From NCBI RefSeq assembly GCF_006346315.1, contig NZ_VDMR01000003.1:62001-126000 (forward strand): 64,000 bases of DNA. The letters run 5' to 3'. Origin of the DNA: Nocardioides litoris (GTDB lineage Bacteria; Actinomycetota; Actinomycetes; Propionibacteriales; Nocardioidaceae). Made by a program: the position numbers and the translations under genes. How positions within the stretch are numbered: the stretch's first letter is position 1; every line of letters begins with the position of its first letter. Under the pieces are notes generated by a model. The model made no database searches and was not told the DNA's origin. It saw only the letters and a list, made by a program, of their open reading frames with translations. Below are positions 3,301 to 40,482 of this stretch, in pieces.

Positions 3301-5141
3301 GTCCGGGTCGCGGTGGCGCCCGAGCCCGAGGTGGCGCTGACCGTGTGGTCGCCGTCGGCCAGCTGGGCCGTCGGCACGTCGGCCCGCAGGCCCTGCGCCG
3401 GGGCGTCGACGTCGAAGACCAGGCCGACCCGCAGCGTGCCGGTGAAGCTGCTGCCGCAGCTGCCGTCGCCGATCGCGACCGGGACGGCCGCGCCGGCGGC
3501 GGTGACCGACCGGGTGGTCAGGCGGGCCGTGCCGGCGGCCGGGGCCAGCACGATGTCGGCCAGCGAGAAGTCGTCGAAGTTGTCGCCGCACTCCGAGGGG
3601 ATCGAGCCGGCGACGACCTCCACGACGTTGGTGCCGGGCAGCAGCCACTCGTTGGGGATCGCGAGGTCGGCGGTGACGCCGACGTGGTCGGCGAGGTCGT
3701 AGCGGTTGCCGTTGACCAGGACGTGGTTGTAGTAGCGCGCCTCGGTGCCGTTGCCGCCCACGAGGAAGCGAAGGTGCGCCTCGCCCGACCCCAGCGTCGG
3801 CAGGGTCCGCGCGGTCGGGGCGCCCTCGACGGAGAACGACAGGGCCGCCTCGGTCAGCCGGGTCGTGCTGCTGCCGCAGGTGCCGTCACCCATGGCGTAC
3901 GTCGCGGCGGCCGGGCCCGTGACGGTGCCGCCGTCGACGACGAGGGACACGGCGCTGAGGTCGAAGTCGTCGTGGTTGGCGCACAGGGTGGCGCCGGAGC
4001 CGCTGTTGATGTCGCCGGTGACGATGCGGACCTCGTTGGCCCCGGGCAGCAGGTAGTGGCGCGGCACCGGCACCGCGACCGTCTGGCTGACCCACTCGCC
4101 GCCGATCTCGACCCGGTGGCCGTTGACGAGGAGGTGGTTGTAGTAGCGAGCCTCGATCGAGTTGCTGCCGACGGTGAAGCGCACCTCGGCGTCCCCGGCG
4201 GCGAGCGTGGTCGTGGCGGGCGGCACTGCACCGTCGACGAGCAACGACGCCACCGAGCCCGACCCGGACGCGGACGTGGCCGCGGTGACGGTCTGGCGCC
4301 CGGCGACGAGGGTGCCGTCGACCGGGGAGACCCGGGGAGCGCCCTCCGGGGCGTTGTTGACGCGGACGGTGTGGGCGGTGGTCGCCCCCGACGCGGTGGT
4401 CGCGGCGATGCGGTGCCGGCCGTTGGGCAGGGTGCGGGTGTCGAGCTCGGCGGTCAGGCCGGTCGTGGCGCCGGGAGTGCCCATGGCGAAGAAGTGCAGG
4501 GTGGCGCTGGTGAGCAGGGCGGGGTTGGTGCCGCAGCTGCCGTCGCCCATCGCGTAGGTGTACTCGTTGTCCTCGCCGTCGGCCGTCTCGCCCAGCAGCT
4601 CCAGGCGCACCTCGGAGACGGTGAAGTCGTCGTTGTTGAGCCCGCAGCTGCTCTCGATGGCCCCGGTGCGGATCTCCACGACGTTGTCGCCGGTGCGCAG
4701 CGCGGTGTTGGGCACTTCGACGGTCACGCGCTCGGAGATGGCGTCGGTCAGCCCGATCCGGGTGCCGTTGACCAGCAGGTAGTTGCCGAAGCGGGTCTCG
4801 ATGGAGTTGTCGCCGACGTCGAAGGACAGCCGCGACGTGCCGGGCGTGGCCGTCGCCTCGAGCGGCTCGCCGTCGACGGTCAGCGCGGTGACCTCGTCGC
4901 CCGCGGTCGTCGCGTCGGAGGCCACGGTGACCGTGCCCTCCAGCCAGCGTCCGTCGGCCGGGACCAGGGTGGGTGGGGTCGGGTCGGTCACGGCCGCCGC
5001 CGGTGAGGCGGGAGCCGCGGGCACGGCGGGAGCGGGGGCTGCCGAGGCGGGCGGCACGGCGGTGGAGCCGAGGACCGTGGCCAGCACGGCCGTCACGGTC
5101 ACCGCCGCCGCGCGCCCGCGGGGGCGCCAGGGGTGCGTCAT
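354..5141 (-). CDS. Large secreted multidomain metallophosphoesterase
   Basis: The product has 1595 residues with an N-terminal secretion signal (Arg-rich start, hydrophobic stretch, Ala-Pro region to ~residue 50). Residues ~58-570 hold three similar modules, each with a LVNG-x-R motif, an S-x-C or L-C...DDF element and a GDG-S/T-CG motif. Ig-like segments follow. A calcineurin-type phosphoesterase domain spans ~900-1190, with FTDTQY, HTGD, GNHD, LLSHDY and GHEHG metal motifs; the first has Gln where DxH is usual. An FN3-like domain and three Ig-like repeats form the C-terminus (~1250-1595). It probably hydrolyses extracellular phosphoesters, but the substrate is unknown. The ATG at 5141 has a GGAG eight bases upstream. 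No sorting motif is seen. Confidence 0.88.
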   Translation of the reverse strand: MTHPWRPRGRAAAVTVTAVLATVLGSTAVPPASAAPAPAVPAAPASPAAAVTDPTPPTLVPADGRWLEGTVTVASDATTAGDEVTALTVDGEPLEATATPGTSRLSFDVGDNSIETRFGNYLLVNGTRIGLTDAISERVTVEVPNTALRTGDNVVEIRTGAIESSCGLNNDDFTVSEVRLELLGETADGEDNEYTYAMGDGSCGTNPALLTSATLHFFAMGTPGATTGLTAELDTRTLPNGRHRIAATTASGATTAHTVRVNNAPEGAPRVSPVDGTLVAGRQTVTAATSASGSGSVASLLVDGAVPPATTTLAAGDAEVRFTVGSNSIEARYYNHLLVNGHRVEIGGEWVSQTVAVPVPRHYLLPGANEVRIVTGDINSGSGATLCANHDDFDLSAVSLVVDGGTVTGPAAATYAMGDGTCGSSTTRLTEAALSFSVEGAPTARTLPTLGSGEAHLRFLVGGNGTEARYYNHVLVNGNRYDLADHVGVTADLAIPNEWLLPGTNVVEVVAGSIPSECGDNFDDFSLADIVLAPAAGTARLTTRSVTAAGAAVPVAIGDGSCGSSFTGTLRVGLVFDVDAPAQGLRADVPTAQLADGDHTVSATSGSGATATRTLVTDNTAPVVAGSVPATGQRLTSAVAFDLDLDDLAGVAGTPTTLLDGQPLAPGDPVGPGLAAGPHEITVDAVDALGNRATRRIRFTSAGVPDAPTDLRPVPGTTDVARSADLSAVVAVPGGGDVTAQFTAADVVVPTAGFQGTATAVPTTLEVAGEQQVDASSLTPLGTGELAAPAGRDVTFQRFDLRVGGTGATAPVLRWTGTVDPERVVALRAWNATTRAWDMLASSRGALEGDTVLTAPAPARYVDRGAVHVLVTGEDPFADDLEPRNPDGFADPSTYDFSLVHFTDTQYLAEGAVEQESEAERAVWRAAYGATTEWIAEQARDRKIAYVAHTGDITENNIGAPTTPEMQAQVTGEFEVTSELQGTLDRAGVPNQVIAGNHDNQRGLETGPSSTYNQYYGPGRYEAADDAWGQASYGGPWKEGDNQNNYVLFSAGGLEFVAVGLSYGVTREEADWAASVFRRFPERNGILLSHDYLKPSTNPDGRGAAFAAPDGSLLYKLVVESNPNVFLVLAGHEHGVGTNVKAGVGATVTHDVVEMLADYQFYTVSADRLGLTEVGGYAPTDRLRFGASFLRLLQFDVDRGEMVVDTYSPFLEEFDATEHDEDLRYDGTEDDMVLPVDLTSRTTSFTTDDVAAFVPREDLGTSRVASGGTATTTWSGLRPGTTYGWVVSATSAGGGRTASEPAVFRTAPAPAATVTAADATAPYGEDVVVPVTVRPATAGDPVEGTVTVREGERVLGSAAVTDGLARVTVPAGLAPGRHDLVASYAGSGWVGDGRSAFALTVGSAPSSVVAAAPSVTAGQVPTVAVRVDSGAEGVPATGEVRVSEAGRVLGTGTLTDGAALVGLPATLASGPHRLVVDYLGSAQVAAARTSVVLTVRPAPRVASTTTVRATPGAVRRGARVAFAATVRSTAGVPTGRVSLWRAGRQVASAPLAGGRAVLRVRVDAPAGRRPFTLRYAGSATVLPSQDQVVVRVRRR

Positions 5142-5176
5142 GGGGGTGTCTCCTGGTTCGGGGGTCGGGAGGGTCG

Positions 5177-5212
5177 GGTCAGGCGAGGAGGGTCGGTCAG
5201 GCGAGGAGGGTC
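5177..5212. repeat. 18-bp perfect tandem duplication at the end of the NicO gene
   Basis: The unit GGTCAGGCGAGGAGGGTC occurs twice back to back (5177-5194 and 5195-5212). The right copy contains the last codons and stop of the transporter gene; the left copy repeats the same stop just downstream. It looks like a recent slippage duplication that left the protein unchanged. Confidence 0.85.
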
Positions 5213-5991
5213 TGGGCGGACAGGACGGCGAGGGCGGCGCCGACGCCGGTGATGCCGACGGCGGTGACGAGGGGGCCGACGCGGGTCGCGACGGTGAGGG
5301 CGGGCCGCGACTCCGCGGCGCGGGCGATCCAGCCGGACCCGGCGAGCGCGACCAGCCCGACCCCCAGGAGCACGGCGGCCAGGCCGAGCCCGAACGCCAG
5401 CACGAGCACCAGGGCCAGGCCGCTCCGCCCGGTGAAGATGCCGGTCACCAGCAGCAGGAACGCCGTCGGCGACGGCGCCAGCCCACCCGAGACGCCGAGG
5501 AGCAGCACGCCCGGCCGGCTCGCCCCGTGCCCGTGGCCGTGGCCATGGCCGTGGCCGTGGCCGTGGCCGTGGCCGTGGCCGTGGCCGTGGCCGTGCCCGT
5601 GGCCGTGCCCGTGGCCGCGGTGGGCCCGCAGGTGGCGGCGCAGCAGCCACACGCCGGTCGCCACGACGAGCAGCCCGGCCACCAGGCGCAGGCCCGCCGT
5701 CAGCGCCTCGAGCCGCACCAGGTCGGAGAGCGAGAGGAAGGTCCAGGCCACGGCCAGCACGAGCACCGAGACGGTGTGCATGGCCGCGACCGACCCGGCC
5801 ATCCAGACCGCGTCGCGGGCCCGGCCGCCGCTGCCCACGAGGTAGGCCGCGGCCAGGCTCTTGCCGTGCCCGGGCCCCACGGCGTGCGCGGCACCGGCCA
5901 CGAACGCGACCAGCACGGCCAGCGGCACGAACCCCGGGTCGGTGACGAGCTCGGGGAGCCGCTCCCCCAGCGTCGCCGGGACGCCGGTCAC
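5197..5991 (-). CDS. NicO/RcnA-family nickel-cobalt transporter with (Gly-His)15 loop
   Basis: This 264-residue integral membrane protein has about six hydrophobic segments. Near residue 40 a GAAHAVGPGHGKSLAAAYLVG motif matches the HxxGPGHG hallmark of the NicO (HoxN/RcnA-like) nickel-cobalt permeases. The central cytoplasmic or periplasmic loop (residues ~126-155) is a run of fifteen Gly-His pairs, an extreme version of the His-rich metal loop of this family. Start is a GTG overlapping the stop of the upstream gene by four bases (GTGA), so the two are translationally coupled. Whether it imports or exports metal cannot be decided. Import could serve the nickel superoxide dismutase at 12.6 kb. 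Confidence 0.85.
   Translation of the reverse strand: MTGVPATLGERLPELVTDPGFVPLAVLVAFVAGAAHAVGPGHGKSLAAAYLVGSGGRARDAVWMAGSVAAMHTVSVLVLAVAWTFLSLSDLVRLEALTAGLRLVAGLLVVATGVWLLRRHLRAHRGHGHGHGHGHGHGHGHGHGHGHGHGHGHGHGASRPGVLLLGVSGGLAPSPTAFLLLVTGIFTGRSGLALVLVLAFGLGLAAVLLGVGLVALAGSGWIARAAESRPALTVATRVGPLVTAVGITGVGAALAVLSAQTLLA
5527..5616. repeat. 6-bp tandem repeat (15 units) encoding poly(Gly-His)
   Basis: Fifteen consecutive hexamers of the type GTGGCC occur on the plus strand, with one ATGGCC and three GTGCCC variants. On the coding (minus) strand they read Gly-His. All variants are synonymous, so the dipeptide repeat is kept at protein level while the DNA drifts slightly. Confidence 0.93.
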
Positions 5992-6755
5992 GCGACCGCC
6001 GTGGGCTCGGTGCGGCGCCCGCGCCGGCGCACCCAGAACGCCCCGCCGACCCCGGCCGCGCCGGCCAGGCCGAGCACGCCGCCCATCTGCAGGGCGGCCC
6101 CGGCGGCGCTGGACCGGGTCCCGCCGCCGGTTCCGTCGGCCAGCGCGAAGGCGTGGACCGGGTGCCCGGCGTCGTACGCCGCGCGCTGGCCGTCGGGACC
6201 GGTGGCCAGCGTCCGGTAGGCGGGGTGCAGGTCGGTGAGGGTGGTGACCTCGACCTCGGCCGCCCCGACGGGGGCGCCGGTCCCGCAGGCGAACAGCAGG
6301 TCGACCCCGTCGACGGCCAGGTCGGCCACGGGCGCGGTCCGCCCGGGGCAGCCCCGCCCGTCAGCGGTGACGCGCACGTGCCCGAGCAGGTAGCCCGACA
6401 GGGCGTCGGACCCGGCCAGCAGGTCGGCGTCCCCGGGCTCGGTCAGCACCGCGCCGTCGAGCAGCACCCGCTCGGCGGGCAGCAGGCCGAGGTGCTGGGC
6501 CAACGCGGTCAGGTCGTCGCCGGCCCCGGCCCGCCAGCGGACCCGGACCTCACCGTCGCCGGTGCCCGCGACCTCGACGGTCTGCGGGTCGCCGAACGGG
6601 TGGGCGGCGGCCGGCGGTGCGGCCAGGGTGGCGGCCGCGAGCCAGGCGACGAGGGCGGCCGCTGCGGCCACCAGGCCACGGCGCAGCAGGCCGCGGCGCA
6701 GCAGGGCGGGGCGCAGCAGGGCGGGGCGCAGCAGGGCGGGGTCGAGCAGGGACAC
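5988..6755 (-). CDS. Exported, membrane-anchored partner of the NicO transporter
   Basis: The 255-residue product begins at the GTG at 6755. This start excludes 19 unlikely upstream residues and gives a basic, Leu-rich signal peptide ending at PPAAAHPFG. The mature part (~200 residues) carries no recognised enzyme motif. A hydrophobic segment near the C-terminus (MGGVLGLAGAAGVGGAFWV) followed by RRRGRR anchors it with the bulk outside. Exported AHPFG-type proteins next to NicO/HupE-like transporters are common, and a role in metal delivery is inferred from this pairing only. The stop overlaps the transporter's start by four bases. Confidence 0.7.
   Translation of the reverse strand: MSLLDPALLRPALLRPALLRRGLLRRGLVAAAAALVAWLAAATLAAPPAAAHPFGDPQTVEVAGTGDGEVRVRWRAGAGDDLTALAQHLGLLPAERVLLDGAVLTEPGDADLLAGSDALSGYLLGHVRVTADGRGCPGRTAPVADLAVDGVDLLFACGTGAPVGAAEVEVTTLTDLHPAYRTLATGPDGQRAAYDAGHPVHAFALADGTGGGTRSSAAGAALQMGGVLGLAGAAGVGGAFWVRRRGRRTEPTAVA
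6681..6740. repeat. 15-bp tandem repeat inside the signal-peptide coding region
   Basis: Three perfect copies of GCGCAGCAGGGCGGG (6696-6740) follow one diverged copy (6681-6695). On the minus strand they encode LLRPA-type units near the N-terminus of the exported protein. They put extra arginines into the region before the hydrophobic core. Confidence 0.85.
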
Positions 6756-36888: not shown

Positions 36889-38397
36889 GTGCTCGCGGCG
36901 CTGCTCCTCCCGGTGGTGCCCGCCTCGGCCGGCCCGGCCCCCGCCCCCGCTGGCGCCGCTGCCGACGTCACCACCGTGCGCGCGAAGCCCGCGCCGACGC
37001 CGCCGCTGGTCGCCGCCGCCCGGGCGCTGGACGAGCCGGGCCGGGAGGCGACCCTGGCGCTGCGCGACCTGTTCCTGGCTCGCCCCACCCTCGGCGGCCT
37101 CGGCGACGACTTCGCCGGCGGGCTGCTGGCCCGGCCCACCGACCGCGGTGGCGACCCCTTCGACGACGGGTACGACACCCCCTCGACCCGGCGCTGCGGC
37201 CCCCGCGTCTGCGTGCACTGGGTGCGCTCCGGGCCCGACGCGCCGCCCTCGGCCCGCTGGGCCGCCACCACGCTCCGGGTGGTGGAGCGCGTGTGGCGCC
37301 ACCACGTGACCCGGATGGGCTTCCGCGCCCCGCGGCCCGACGGCCAGCGCGGCGGCGACGCCCGCTTCGACGTCTACCTCAAGGACCTCGGCGTCCGCGG
37401 CCTGTACGGCTACTGCGCCCCCGAGGCGCTCGTGCCCGGGCAGCCGCGGCAGGCCAGCGGCTTCTGCGTGCTCGACGACGACTTCGCCCGCTCCCAGTTC
37501 GGCCGCGCCCCCCAGCAGACGCTCGAGGTCACCGCCGCCCACGAGTTCTTCCACGCCGTGCAGTTCGCCTACGACGTGCGTGAGGACCCCTGGCTGCTGG
37601 AGTCGACGGCCACCTGGATCGAGGAGCGGTTCGCCGACCGGGTCGACGACAACCGGGCCTACCTGCGCTTCGGGCAGCTCGGCCGGCCCCGCGTCCCCCT
37701 CGACCTGTTCGAGACCACCGGGTACGCCCACTACGGCAACTGGACCTTCTGGGAGCACCTCACCGACCGCTTCGGTCCCGGCCTGGTCCGCCGGGTCATC
37801 GAGCGCGCCGGCACCGGCGACGGGCTGCCCGACGAGTACTCCACCCAGGCGCTGGCGAGCGTCCTCGCGGCCCGCGGCGGCCTCCCCGCGGCCTACGCCT
37901 CCTACGCCGCCGACAACACCGTGCCCGCGCGCACCTACCCCGAGGGCGCCTCCTGGCCCGCGGCCCCCGTGGCGCGGCGCACCCTCTCCCGCACCGACCG
38001 GCGCGCGGTGCTGCGCACCCGCCTGGACCACCTCACGTCCCGCTCGGTGCGCCTCGTCCCGGCCCGCGGCCTCGGCAAGCGGTCGGGTGGGGGCTGGAAG
38101 GTGACCGTGACCGTCGACGCCCCCGACCGGGTCACCGCGCCGGCCGCCCGGCTCCTCGTCGTACGACGGGACGGGCGGGTGCGCGCCCGCCCGATCGCCC
38201 TGACCGAGCGGGGACTGGGTCGGGCCGTCGTGCGCCTCGACCGCCGCCGCGTCCGCTCGGTCACCGTGGCCGTCGTCAACGCCTCGACGCGCTTCCGCTG
38301 CGACCGCAGCTCGACCCTCTCCTGCCGCGGCGTCGCCGTCGACGACCGCCAGCCGTTCGTCGTCGAGGCCGTCCTGCGCCGCGCAGCCCGTCGCTGA
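36889..38397 (+). CDS. Secreted zinc metalloprotease-like protein (MXAN_6640 type)
   Basis: The ~502-residue product has a hydrophobic signal region ending at PASAG and a catalytic-looking HExxH motif AAHEFFHAVQFAYD near residue 216, followed by ESTATWIEERF, like MXAN_6640-family putative metalloproteases. A Cys-poor C-terminal beta domain follows. The GTG at 36889 gives a signal without a positive N-terminus. The frame stays open upstream to an ATC preceded by GGAG (36837 region), so the true start is doubtful. Confidence 0.8.
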   Translation: MLAALLLPVVPASAGPAPAPAGAAADVTTVRAKPAPTPPLVAAARALDEPGREATLALRDLFLARPTLGGLGDDFAGGLLARPTDRGGDPFDDGYDTPSTRRCGPRVCVHWVRSGPDAPPSARWAATTLRVVERVWRHHVTRMGFRAPRPDGQRGGDARFDVYLKDLGVRGLYGYCAPEALVPGQPRQASGFCVLDDDFARSQFGRAPQQTLEVTAAHEFFHAVQFAYDVREDPWLLESTATWIEERFADRVDDNRAYLRFGQLGRPRVPLDLFETTGYAHYGNWTFWEHLTDRFGPGLVRRVIERAGTGDGLPDEYSTQALASVLAARGGLPAAYASYAADNTVPARTYPEGASWPAAPVARRTLSRTDRRAVLRTRLDHLTSRSVRLVPARGLGKRSGGGWKVTVTVDAPDRVTAPAARLLVVRRDGRVRARPIALTERGLGRAVVRLDRRRVRSVTVAVVNASTRFRCDRSSTLSCRGVAVDDRQPFVVEAVLRRAARR

Positions 38398-38421
38398 GTC
38401 CCGCGCGTCCGGTCGCGCCCG

Positions 38422-38557
38422 GGAGTTCCGTCGCAGAAGTGGCAGTTTCTCCGGTTAACCGGAGTTTCTGCCCCCACCGCTGCACTCCCGGCACGAAACT
38501 GCCACTTCTGGCACGGAGTTCCGTGCCAGAAGTGGCAGTTTCTCCGGTCAACCGGAG
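38422..38557. repeat. REP-like palindromic repeat cluster between convergent genes
   Basis: Two 43-bp direct copies (38422-38464 and 38515-38557) share GGAGTTCCG, a variable 4-mer, AGAAGTGGCAGTTTCT and a CCGGT(T/C)AACCGGAG palindrome. Between them is an inverted copy: GAAACTGCCACTTCTGGCACGG (38495-38516) pairs perfectly with 38521-38542 across an AGTT loop, a 22-bp stem. The first copy also holds a 16-bp palindrome CTCCGGTTAACCGGAG. It lies in the 200-base gap between two convergent genes and may terminate both. Confidence 0.92.
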
Positions 38558-38597
38558 ATCTTGCCGGCCGCGCGCACCAGGCGCGGCCGTGCCGCGC

Positions 38598-40415
38598 TCA
38601 GCGCCGCGAGTAGTCCCGGAACCCGCGCTTGGTCTTGCGGCCGAGGTAGCCCGCGGTGACGAGGTGCTCCAGCAGCGGCGCCGGGGCGAAGCCGGGCTCG
38701 CGGAACTCCTGGTAGAGCTCGCGCTGGATGGCCAGCGAGACGTCGTTGCCGACGACGTCGAGCAGCTCGAAGGGGCCCATCGGCAGGGCACAGCCCTGCT
38801 TCATCGCAGTGTCGATGTCGTCGGCGGTGGCGTAGTGCTGCTCGAGCATCTTGACCGCGTCGTTGAGGTAGGGGAACAGCAGCGCGTTGACGATGAACCC
38901 GGCCCGGTCACCGCAGGAGACCGCGACCTTGCCGACCTTCGCGCACAGGGCCCGGGTGGTCTCGGTGACGTCGTCGTCGGTGGAGACGGTCGAGACGACC
39001 TCGACCAGCTTCATGACGGTGGCGGGGTTGAAGAAGTGCATCCCGATGACGTCCTGCGGCCGCTGGGTCACCTTGGCCATCGCGATGATCGGCAGCGAGG
39101 AGGTCGTGGTGGCCAGGATCGCACCGGGCTTGCAGATCTCGTCGAGGTTCTCGAACAGGGTCGTCTTGACCGCGAGGTCCTCGGCGATCGCCTCGACGAC
39201 GATGTCGACGGACCCGAGGTCGTCGAGCTTGATCGAGCCGGTCAGGCGGCCGAGCACCTCGGTCTTGGCCTCCTCGGTGGCCCGACCACGCTGGATCTGC
39301 TTGTCGAAGTTCTTGGTGATGGTGGTGACGACCCCGTCGACCTTGTCCTGGCTGCGGCCGACGTACAGCACGTCGTACCCGGCCTTGGCGAAGACCTCGA
39401 CGATGCCCGCGGCCATGGTGCCGGTGCCGACGACACCGACCTGGCGGATGTCGTGCCGGAGCTGCGGCGCCTCGTCGGCCGACGGCGTGGCGGCGTCGGG
39501 GACGACCACGGGGCTGTCGACCGACTCGTAGGTGTAGAACCCGCGGCCGGTCTTGCGGCCGAGCAGGCCCGCGGTGACCATCTGCTTGAGGATCGGGGTC
39601 GGCGCGTGCAGGCGGTCGCGACCCTGGCGGTACATCGTCTCCAGGATCTCGTACGCCGTGTCGAGGCCGATCAGGTCGAGCAGGGCCAGCGGACCCATCG
39701 GGTAGCCGCAGCCGAAGCGCATGGCGGCGTCGATGTCCTCGCGGGTGGCGTAGCGGCCCTCGAACATCGAGGCCGCGTGGTTGAGGTAGCCGAAGAGCAG
39801 CGTGTTGGCGATGAAGCCGGCCTTGTCGCCGCACACGACCGGGCTCTTGCCGAGCGAGCCGAGCAGCGCCTGCACGTCGGCCAGCACCGACGGCTCGGTG
39901 ACCACGGTGCGCACGACCTCGACGAGGTCCTGGACGGGCGCGGGGTTGAAGAAGTGGACGCCGATGACGCGCCCGGGGGCCGAGGTGGCCGAGGACAGCT
40001 CGGTCACCGACAGCGAGGACGTGTTGGTGGCCAGCACCGTCTCGGGCCGGACGATGCCGTCGAGGTCCTGGAAGATGCCCTTCTTGACGTCCATGGACTC
40101 CACCACGGCCTCGACCACGAGGTCGGCGTCGGCGAGGTCCTTGAGCTCGGTCGTGAACCGCACCCGGTCGAGCAGCGCGGACTGCTCCTCGGCGGTCATC
40201 TTCTCGCGCTTGACGGCGCGGCCGGTGGAGGCGGTGACGTGCTGGCGCCCGCGCTCGACACCGGCGTCGTCCACCTCGACGCCGACGACGTCGTACCCGT
40301 GGCGGGCGAAGACCTCGACGATGCCGGCGCCCATGGTGCCGAGACCGACGACGCCGATCGTGGTGAAGGTGCGGGTGCCGGGCTCGGTGGTCTCCGGGCT
40401 GCTCTGGCTCGTCAT
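38598..40415 (-). CDS. Double 3-hydroxyacyl-CoA dehydrogenase (tandem fusion)
   Basis: The 605-residue product holds two complete 3-hydroxybutyryl-CoA dehydrogenase units in series. Each has the Rossmann motif (IGVVGLGTMGAGIVEVFARHGYDV and VGVVGTGTMAAGIVEVFAKAGYDV), an NTSS/TTSS substrate loop, the HFFNPA motif and a C-terminal YPMGP/LPMGP helix domain. The units are split near residue 305. It acts in beta-oxidation or butyrate/PHB metabolism with NAD(P). The ATG at 40415 gives MTSQSS; two ATGs at 40424 and 40427 are alternatives. Confidence 0.93.
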   Translation of the reverse strand: MTSQSSPETTEPGTRTFTTIGVVGLGTMGAGIVEVFARHGYDVVGVEVDDAGVERGRQHVTASTGRAVKREKMTAEEQSALLDRVRFTTELKDLADADLVVEAVVESMDVKKGIFQDLDGIVRPETVLATNTSSLSVTELSSATSAPGRVIGVHFFNPAPVQDLVEVVRTVVTEPSVLADVQALLGSLGKSPVVCGDKAGFIANTLLFGYLNHAASMFEGRYATREDIDAAMRFGCGYPMGPLALLDLIGLDTAYEILETMYRQGRDRLHAPTPILKQMVTAGLLGRKTGRGFYTYESVDSPVVVPDAATPSADEAPQLRHDIRQVGVVGTGTMAAGIVEVFAKAGYDVLYVGRSQDKVDGVVTTITKNFDKQIQRGRATEEAKTEVLGRLTGSIKLDDLGSVDIVVEAIAEDLAVKTTLFENLDEICKPGAILATTTSSLPIIAMAKVTQRPQDVIGMHFFNPATVMKLVEVVSTVSTDDDVTETTRALCAKVGKVAVSCGDRAGFIVNALLFPYLNDAVKMLEQHYATADDIDTAMKQGCALPMGPFELLDVVGNDVSLAIQRELYQEFREPGFAPAPLLEHLVTAGYLGRKTKRGFRDYSRR

Positions 40416-40482
40416 GGCGCGCATCATGGCACGCAGGAACGGGCCCCGGGACCGATGTTCACTCGTCGGTAACTTGTGACCT

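Follow-up and report, generated by a model that had tools for sequence, protein, structure and literature searches.

Scattered palindromes that are kept by an enzyme of their own have their standard case in REP elements and RAYT transposases. In that system, many short extragenic palindromes are present singly and in composite arrays, their letters differ between species, and inverted copies bracket a gene. To our knowledge, the way in which REP copies spread is still poorly understood. REP and BIME repeats with a RAYT (TnpA-REP) transposase are described in the accessible parts of PMC2817692 and PMC8266576. Palindromes for which no dedicated transposase is reported, the CGTC-tagged REPs, are described in PMC3733652, whose accessible text names five phyla, Actinobacteria not among them, and units of 20-40 bp. 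In the AbiE system, according to the available part of PMC3985639, the promoter of AbiEi has long inverted repeats to which the protein binds.

The family described here has one copy in the window (the whole stretch of 64,000 nucleotides that was analysed). It resembles REP/RAYT in its many extragenic palindromes, single or composite, in its species-specific letters and in a gene bracketed by inverted copies. It differs in that no Y1 gene was found in its own genome, in that the protein encoded by the bracketed gene joins a PD-(D/E)XK-like motif to an AbiEi_4 domain, and in its unit, which is composed of two palindromes, P and Q, the core-to-core distance being 62 or 93 nt in most cases. Since a RAYT gene was sought and not found, the family is classed here as working like REP/RAYT and not as a member. 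It is probably a system that operates in the same manner on an unrelated AbiEi_4 plus nuclease-like protein, which would do the cutting and copying. As with CGTC-tagged REPs, a cgtc stands behind Q in some relatives, as judged by eye; unlike them, as far as the accessible text of PMC3733652 goes, a bracketed gene exists. Gene-less copies whose ends are common to a gene-bearing element recall the MITEs of IS elements, but here the ends are palindromic, the gene stands at common orthologous sites, and neither a target-site duplication nor a transposase domain was found. The N-terminal AbiEi_4 domain is that of the type IV AbiE antitoxin AbiEi, which binds inverted repeats (PMC3985639, available part), whereas the C-terminal nuclease-like motif, the inverted ends on both sides and the lack of a toxin directly beside the locus in the own genome (L061) set the protein apart. 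No link of AbiEi or DUF559 genes to REP-like repeats or to such inverted ends was found among the matches listed in the open-access literature.

The palindromic element in the window

The element (38422-38565, no strand assigned to it or to its parts) lies in a convergent gap between a plus-strand gene (36889-38397, 502 aa) and a minus-strand fadB-like gene (38598-40427, 609 aa) with 3-hydroxyacyl-CoA dehydrogenase domains. It consists of two tandem units on the minus strand, the second of which is cut short, with P cores 93 nt apart, and is the top-scoring match (85.8 bits) of the genus-level covariance model R2 in both the family and the class searches. The first copy of palindrome P (38441-38472) has the perfect core CTCCGGTTAACCGGAG at 38449-38464 and is followed by a spacer, half-repeat R (38473-38494), which is like a diverged half of Q when copies are compared by eye. 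Palindrome Q (38495-38542) is a perfect inverted repeat with 23-bp arms, 38495-38517 and 38520-38542, set 2 nt apart. The second copy of P (38534-38565, core 38542-38557) forms the outer end of the unit. RNA folding of 38410-38575 gave -102.4 kcal/mol, with a z of -10.06 against 200 shuffles. The word AGAAGTGGCAGTTTC has three exact sites in the window and one with three mismatches, while the shuffled window holds on average 0.33 sites with up to three mismatches, and none of 100 shuffles reached four.

The original prediction had described two direct copies and one inverted copy in a convergent gap, with a hairpin of perfect stem. Both features were recovered: the direct copies (38422-38472 and 38515-38565) are 51 nt long and 88% identical, and the arm of the inverted copy is 38495-38517. 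Of the extent given there, 38422-38557, the start stands, while the element ends about 8 nt further on, at 38565. The proposal that it serves as a bidirectional terminator fared less well; the place behind stop codons fits, but no stem-loop with a T run after it (0), and indeed neither a promoter-like nor a terminator-like site, was found at 38300-38700. An Rfam search for the identity of the element was discarded: its six matches were to microRNA families without exception, and none came near the gathering score. The 502-aa neighbour had no Pfam match at E 0.001; its relatives are common in Nocardioides, most matches in named genomes being to that genus, and its HEFFHAVQ stretch presumably resembles a metallopeptidase motif. 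Taken jointly with the whole explanation proposed below, the element is probably a compact, gene-less copy of a palindromic-unit family.

Dispersed units and the gene that they bracket

In the own genome (4.66 Mb, 22 contigs), AGAAGTGGCAGTTTC with up to one mismatch was matched 25 times (control, 1), and the core CTCCGGTTAACCGGAG with up to two mismatches at 46 sites in 26 stretches (reversed control, 0), so the element does not occur only in the window and the predicted dispersed family exists. One stretch (L047, E 0.13) is probably false and was kept among the 26 and in the gap-context counts. Adjacent cores are spaced by 62 nt (12 cases), 93 nt (six), 92 nt (one) or 109 nt (one), that is, mostly by two or three times 31 nt. 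Reading of the copies defined the unit as palindrome P (about 32 bp, GGCAAAAY-CTCCGGTTAACCGGAG-AAACTGCC), palindrome Q (about 40 bp, CCACTYCTGGYGGGGAACTCCCCACCAGRAGTGG) and a half-copy of Q. Two inverted units with one common Q make up the 62-nt form; the window copy is of the 93-nt form, which has two units in tandem. With genes called by a home-made codon-usage finder, 18 of the 26 stretches fall into convergent gaps, 8 into tandem gaps and none into divergent gaps, compared with 3 convergent (the element's own gap counted among them), 9 tandem and 10 divergent for window gaps of at least 60 nt; the convergent excess has a Fisher p of about 1e-4 in each contrast. Covariation among the copies inside this genome did not rise above shuffles, and the copies there thus seem to decay from shared masters.

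At one locus of the own genome (L061), two inverted units bracket a single gene (5118-6083, minus strand, 321 aa) whose product has an AbiEi_4 domain. Genes for a methyltransferase and an inorganic pyrophosphatase stand next to this gene, and no AbiEii toxin gene stands beside the nuclease gene at this locus, the only one examined in this respect. Homologues of the protein are present in 202 of 215 genomes of the genus. At all but one of the 30 best loci (29 of 30), R2 matched the plus strand on one side and the minus strand on the other; the remaining locus, L335, is at a contig end. Of 20 further loci, 16 have units on both sides, two on one side (L385, L393) and two on neither (L389, L390), which brings both-side units as found by R2 to 45 of 50 loci. 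These 50 are the 51 best homologue matches minus the second locus of genome G099. In most of them, each end matches the P-Q model at full length (1-70). A model-free alignment of the left flank to the reverse-complemented right flank gave scores of 51-142 (median, 91) in all 50 loci and at most 32 in 200 shuffled flank pairs. Because related species contribute near-identical flanks to the cross-locus null (maximum, 710), only its median, 27, is informative. Of 213 control genes called by the home-made finder (length, 600-1500 nt), one reached 51, and this was the nuclease gene itself; none of 212 true controls did so.

Lengths of the gene-bearing form range from 1154 to 1372 bp (median, 1225), and one inverted end lies upstream of the gene in 50 of 50 loci. 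According to the home-made gene finder, 40 of 49 nuclease loci lie in convergent and 9 in tandem gaps. No target-site duplication was detected at 58 loci, the longest flanking repeat averaging 3.7 against 3.9 in the null, and a flanking repeat of at least 6 being present at 1 of 58 loci against a null fraction of 0.10. One TGA was noticed within the matched stretch of the homologues L352, L353, L356, L362, L335 and L375. Some of these may have decayed, or the stop codon itself may simply be included at the end of the match. The viral contigs contained no relative of the nuclease, and the plasmids gave one partial match, in Tsukamurella, with 34% identity over 54% of the query.

In an alignment of 27 homologues, S205, E208, D241, E252, D254, G255, K258, E276, K277 and R279 are invariant. 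We read E208, D241, E252, D254 and K258 as a predicted PD-(D/E)XK-like active-site pattern in the C-terminal part. All 27 proteins matched the N-terminal AbiEi_4 domain at E up to 1 (best, 2.8e-11), and PADLOC AbiEi models matched 26 of 27. At the same threshold, DUF559 gave weak matches in 6 of 27 (best, 0.00098) and the restriction-nuclease model MTES_1575 in 3 of 27 (best, 0.00011). No transposase domain was found in the bracketed protein, and a search of solved structures by sequence returned no relative.

Relatives, cognate ends and orthologous gaps

Exact words are nearly blind in relatives, with matches in 2 of 58 and 1 of 118 genomes, the own genome being counted in both sets. Covariance models, unlike exact words, changed this picture. 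Model R1, built from 37 units of the own genome, matched 119 of 215 genomes of the same genus, and R2 matched 85 of 149 Nocardioidaceae genomes in 11 of 26 genera. Of 296 genomes sampled across the class, 32 had R2 matches, 23 of them members of the family, and the nine outside it had 1 to 5 matches each; the family of elements is thus rarely found outside Nocardioidaceae. The numbers per genome are lower bounds because of strict filters, with up to 23, 33 and 17 candidates scored per genome in the genus, family and class searches, respectively. R1 matched 3 of 13 genomes that lack a homologue of the protein and 116 of 202 that have one (p 0.02). One genome (G108) has ten R2 matches and only a weak protein homologue (E 6e-13).

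An alignment of one copy per genome (28 genomes, 27 distinct rows; by their coordinates at least the rows from L108, L113, L114 and L168 are nuclease ends) showed that the P-Q geometry and the AGTTTC/GAAACT boxes are kept. The letters of the stems vary among species, yet they co-vary: cells changed on both sides number 47 in P (shuffled mean, 17.0) and 122 in Q (shuffled mean, 40.1), with 0 of 500 shuffles reaching either value. R1 as a search model could favour paired matches; pairs outside its structure co-vary too (P 1-8/25-32 and Q 25-30/65-70), columns 3-30 and 30-65 having nine double-change cells each. Covariation of this kind across species would suit a hairpin and a symmetric DNA site alike.

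We compared the Q stems of dispersed copies with the nuclease ends of 47 genomes. The ends from a copy's own genome took first rank for 23 of the 40 copies and one of the first three ranks for 35; at a chance of 1/47, 23 of 40 has a binomial p of 2e-28, a figure that ignores relatedness and the choice of copies. The 40 copies were hand-chosen as strong matches from genomes with a known nuclease locus, and the nuclease ends L108 (first copy), L113 and L114 were excluded. Exceptions, with a poor fit to the nuclease ends of their own genome, include copies from G106 (rank 29), G086 (rank 22) and G064 (rank 8 of 47). The longer unit in the window is identical to each L061 end at 55 of 70 positions, while the L061 ends agree with each other at 59 of 70.

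Nuclease loci of different species share orthologous flanks, which form at least five site groups (home-made gene finder). Many species have nuclease loci at the same orthologous positions, and so no recent movement of the gene-bearing form is seen. At site 2, represented in 18 species, the flanks are 87.5% identical (median) and the gene 74%. Median scores there are 89.5 for the two ends of one locus and 26 and 25 for same-side ends of different species, as compared with 22 for the ends of any two loci and 14 for shuffled ends. Orthologous ends thus resemble each other hardly more than unrelated ends do. The two ends of a locus are closer to each other than to any orthologous end in 14 of 18 cases at site 2 and in 5 of 6 at site 1, while at sites 3 to 5 (1 of 4, 1 of 3 and 1 of 3) joint change is unclear. 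The likeness of paired ends at sites 1 and 2 indicates that both ends change together, as copying between the ends or from dispersed copies would cause.

At four orthologous gaps, different species carry the nuclease form and a compact palindrome form. In two pairs, L378 (the second locus of the own genome) versus L112 (G210) and L363 versus L173, the flanks are 84-89% identical. In the weaker pairs, L391 versus L145 and L390 versus L178, they are 69-76% identical, and one flank match among these spans 97 nt. R2 matches all four compact forms. Seven flank pairs shorter than 900 nt were obtained, of which these four were counted, two pairs involving L061 were dropped for overlapping matches, and L370 versus L316 (from another genus; flanks 71 and 69% identical, with a model match between them) was omitted as weak. 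The four pairs tie compact elements like that of the window to the gene-bearing form, although the compact forms could also be independent arrivals at those gaps.

The two neighbour genes of the window element lie within 11 kb of each other in only 1 of 79 named loci (L180), where they are not adjacent. Since they are so seldom together, only the fadB-like flank was compared for the window copy. Directly behind the fadB-like gene, no element was found in 28 of 29 relatives examined (of 215 genomes with a match), the single exception being G223 (L261), and the element is thus not fixed at this site. The G008 locus (L280) contains a weak match (24.7 bits) at a different place. Behind an FKBP gene, a P palindrome is present in N. 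rubriscoriae and N. abyssi (L180 and L188), with differing letters, that is, in 2 of 35 named loci in which the gene end was found; in many others the next gene differs. The window's own FKBP gene has no P palindrome behind it. Over the 79 named loci, R1 gave five matches, in L180, L188 and L181.

Candidate mechanism and alternative explanations

Comparison of the sequences establishes the dispersal of the units, the association of ends and gene, the fit of dispersed copies to the ends in their own genome, the joint change of paired ends and the two forms at orthologous gaps; the mechanism that we propose on this basis is a prediction. In the own genome and across the genus, a 1.2-kb locus with one gene has such units as its two inverted ends, and the gene product combines an N-terminal AbiEi-type DNA-binding domain with a C-terminal PD-(D/E)XK-like nuclease motif. 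The AbiEi-like domain may recognise the palindromes, and the binding of inverted repeats by AbiEi, as given in the available part of PMC3985639, makes recognition of P or Q plausible. The protein would then nick or cut at the palindromes, and repair from another copy would both spread units to new sites and keep the copies of one genome alike. At several sites the nuclease gene itself appears to follow vertical descent, and it may have been domesticated. Copies would survive behind stop codons, mostly in convergent gaps, where insertions may be least harmful or may help to end transcripts.

What this reading shares with its competitors, and what separates it from them, is best seen by taking the same observations under each. 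Were the palindromes operator-like sites of an AbiEi-type regulator, the locus would be regulatory, a toxin-antitoxin or a defence locus, and the scattered sites would be targets and not mobile copies. The binding of inverted repeats by AbiEi at its own promoter (PMC3985639, available part), the end upstream of the gene at every one of the 50 loci and the PADLOC AbiEi matches agree with this. However, the scattered sites lie behind stop codons and not at promoters (no divergent gap among the 26), units stand at both ends of the gene, the nuclease-like motif is left unexplained, and the methyltransferase and inorganic pyrophosphatase genes beside L061 include no toxin; we regard such a regulator as unlikely. 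A homing-type process, in which a nuclease gene inserts into existing palindromes at its cutting site and splits one, the palindromes being spread otherwise, would account for the occurrence of both forms, compact and gene-bearing, at the four orthologous gaps and for the missing target-site duplication. A split palindrome should leave half a unit at each end, but in most loci each end matches the whole P-Q model, and the agreement of ends and dispersed copies within genomes would need continued copying, so that homing, too, is a doubtful explanation.

Ordinary bidirectional transcription terminators, held by selection and non-mobile, would be expected to form strong hairpins behind stop codons with an excess in convergent gaps, all of which is seen. 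Against them stand the stem without a T run at 38300-38700, letters that are common within a genome and with its nuclease ends, the absence of the element at most orthologous gaps examined and the lack of covariation among within-genome copies, and we consider this account improbable. The original prediction had named a RAYT transposase as the possible mover. A genuine REP family mobilised by such a Y1/HUH enzyme is suggested by REP-like palindromes, composite arrays and extragenic placement, and is the least credible of all: PF01797 had no match in the own genome, while 5 of 14 control genomes were positive, and for the own genome the RAYT reading is largely refuted. The further expectation of a gene flanked by copies was right as to the inverted copies that bracket a gene and wrong as to its kind, which is AbiEi_4/PD-(D/E)XK-like and not Y1.

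We tentatively suggest that copying of palindromes by an AbiEi-PD-(D/E)XK fusion could represent a new class of bacterial selfish or domesticated system, one that does without Y1, DDE or recombinase chemistry and in which the nuclease drives the joint replacement of palindromes. With each nuclease replacing its own palindromes jointly, recognition letters would turn over between species at fixed sites. If this holds, it is a second system with an unrelated enzyme, and the REP/RAYT style of life would have arisen more than once; it would also explain why genes matched by AbiEi models stand between long inverted repeats. The system offers a nuclease-like protein together with a predicted cognate site, which can be tested directly, and orthologous loci with changed palindrome letters make co-evolution of protein and site testable.

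A search of four genomes with PF13338 gave 21 matches. At these loci, R2 marks both ends in L329, L330, L334, L338, L343 and L346 and one end in L335. The model-free end test could be applied to 19 of the 21 loci, 12 of which reached 51; L343 fell below this value because of a wrong gene boundary, R2 marking both its ends. Other AbiEi_4 loci (L332, L336, L337, L340, L342, L344 and L347) have inverted ends of quite different sequence, with scores of 68-113. AbiEi_4 genes with such differing, unrelated ends suggest further repeat families of the same logic, possibly as members of a large superfamily that comprises many distinct ones.

A second, larger repeat of the own genome occurs at 21 loci (L120-L139 and L045:1712-1775), with a Q-like core within inverted arms, which have a CGCCGCCGCTGGCGCGGCC-like sequence in most copies; 9 of its copies lie in convergent, 11 in tandem and 1 in divergent gaps. 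Words similar to GCCGAGTCGGCGCATCTGC recur beside AbiEi_4 genes and in intergenic gaps, namely at the ends of L340 and L347, in the FKBP gap of L191 and upstream of the element in L152.
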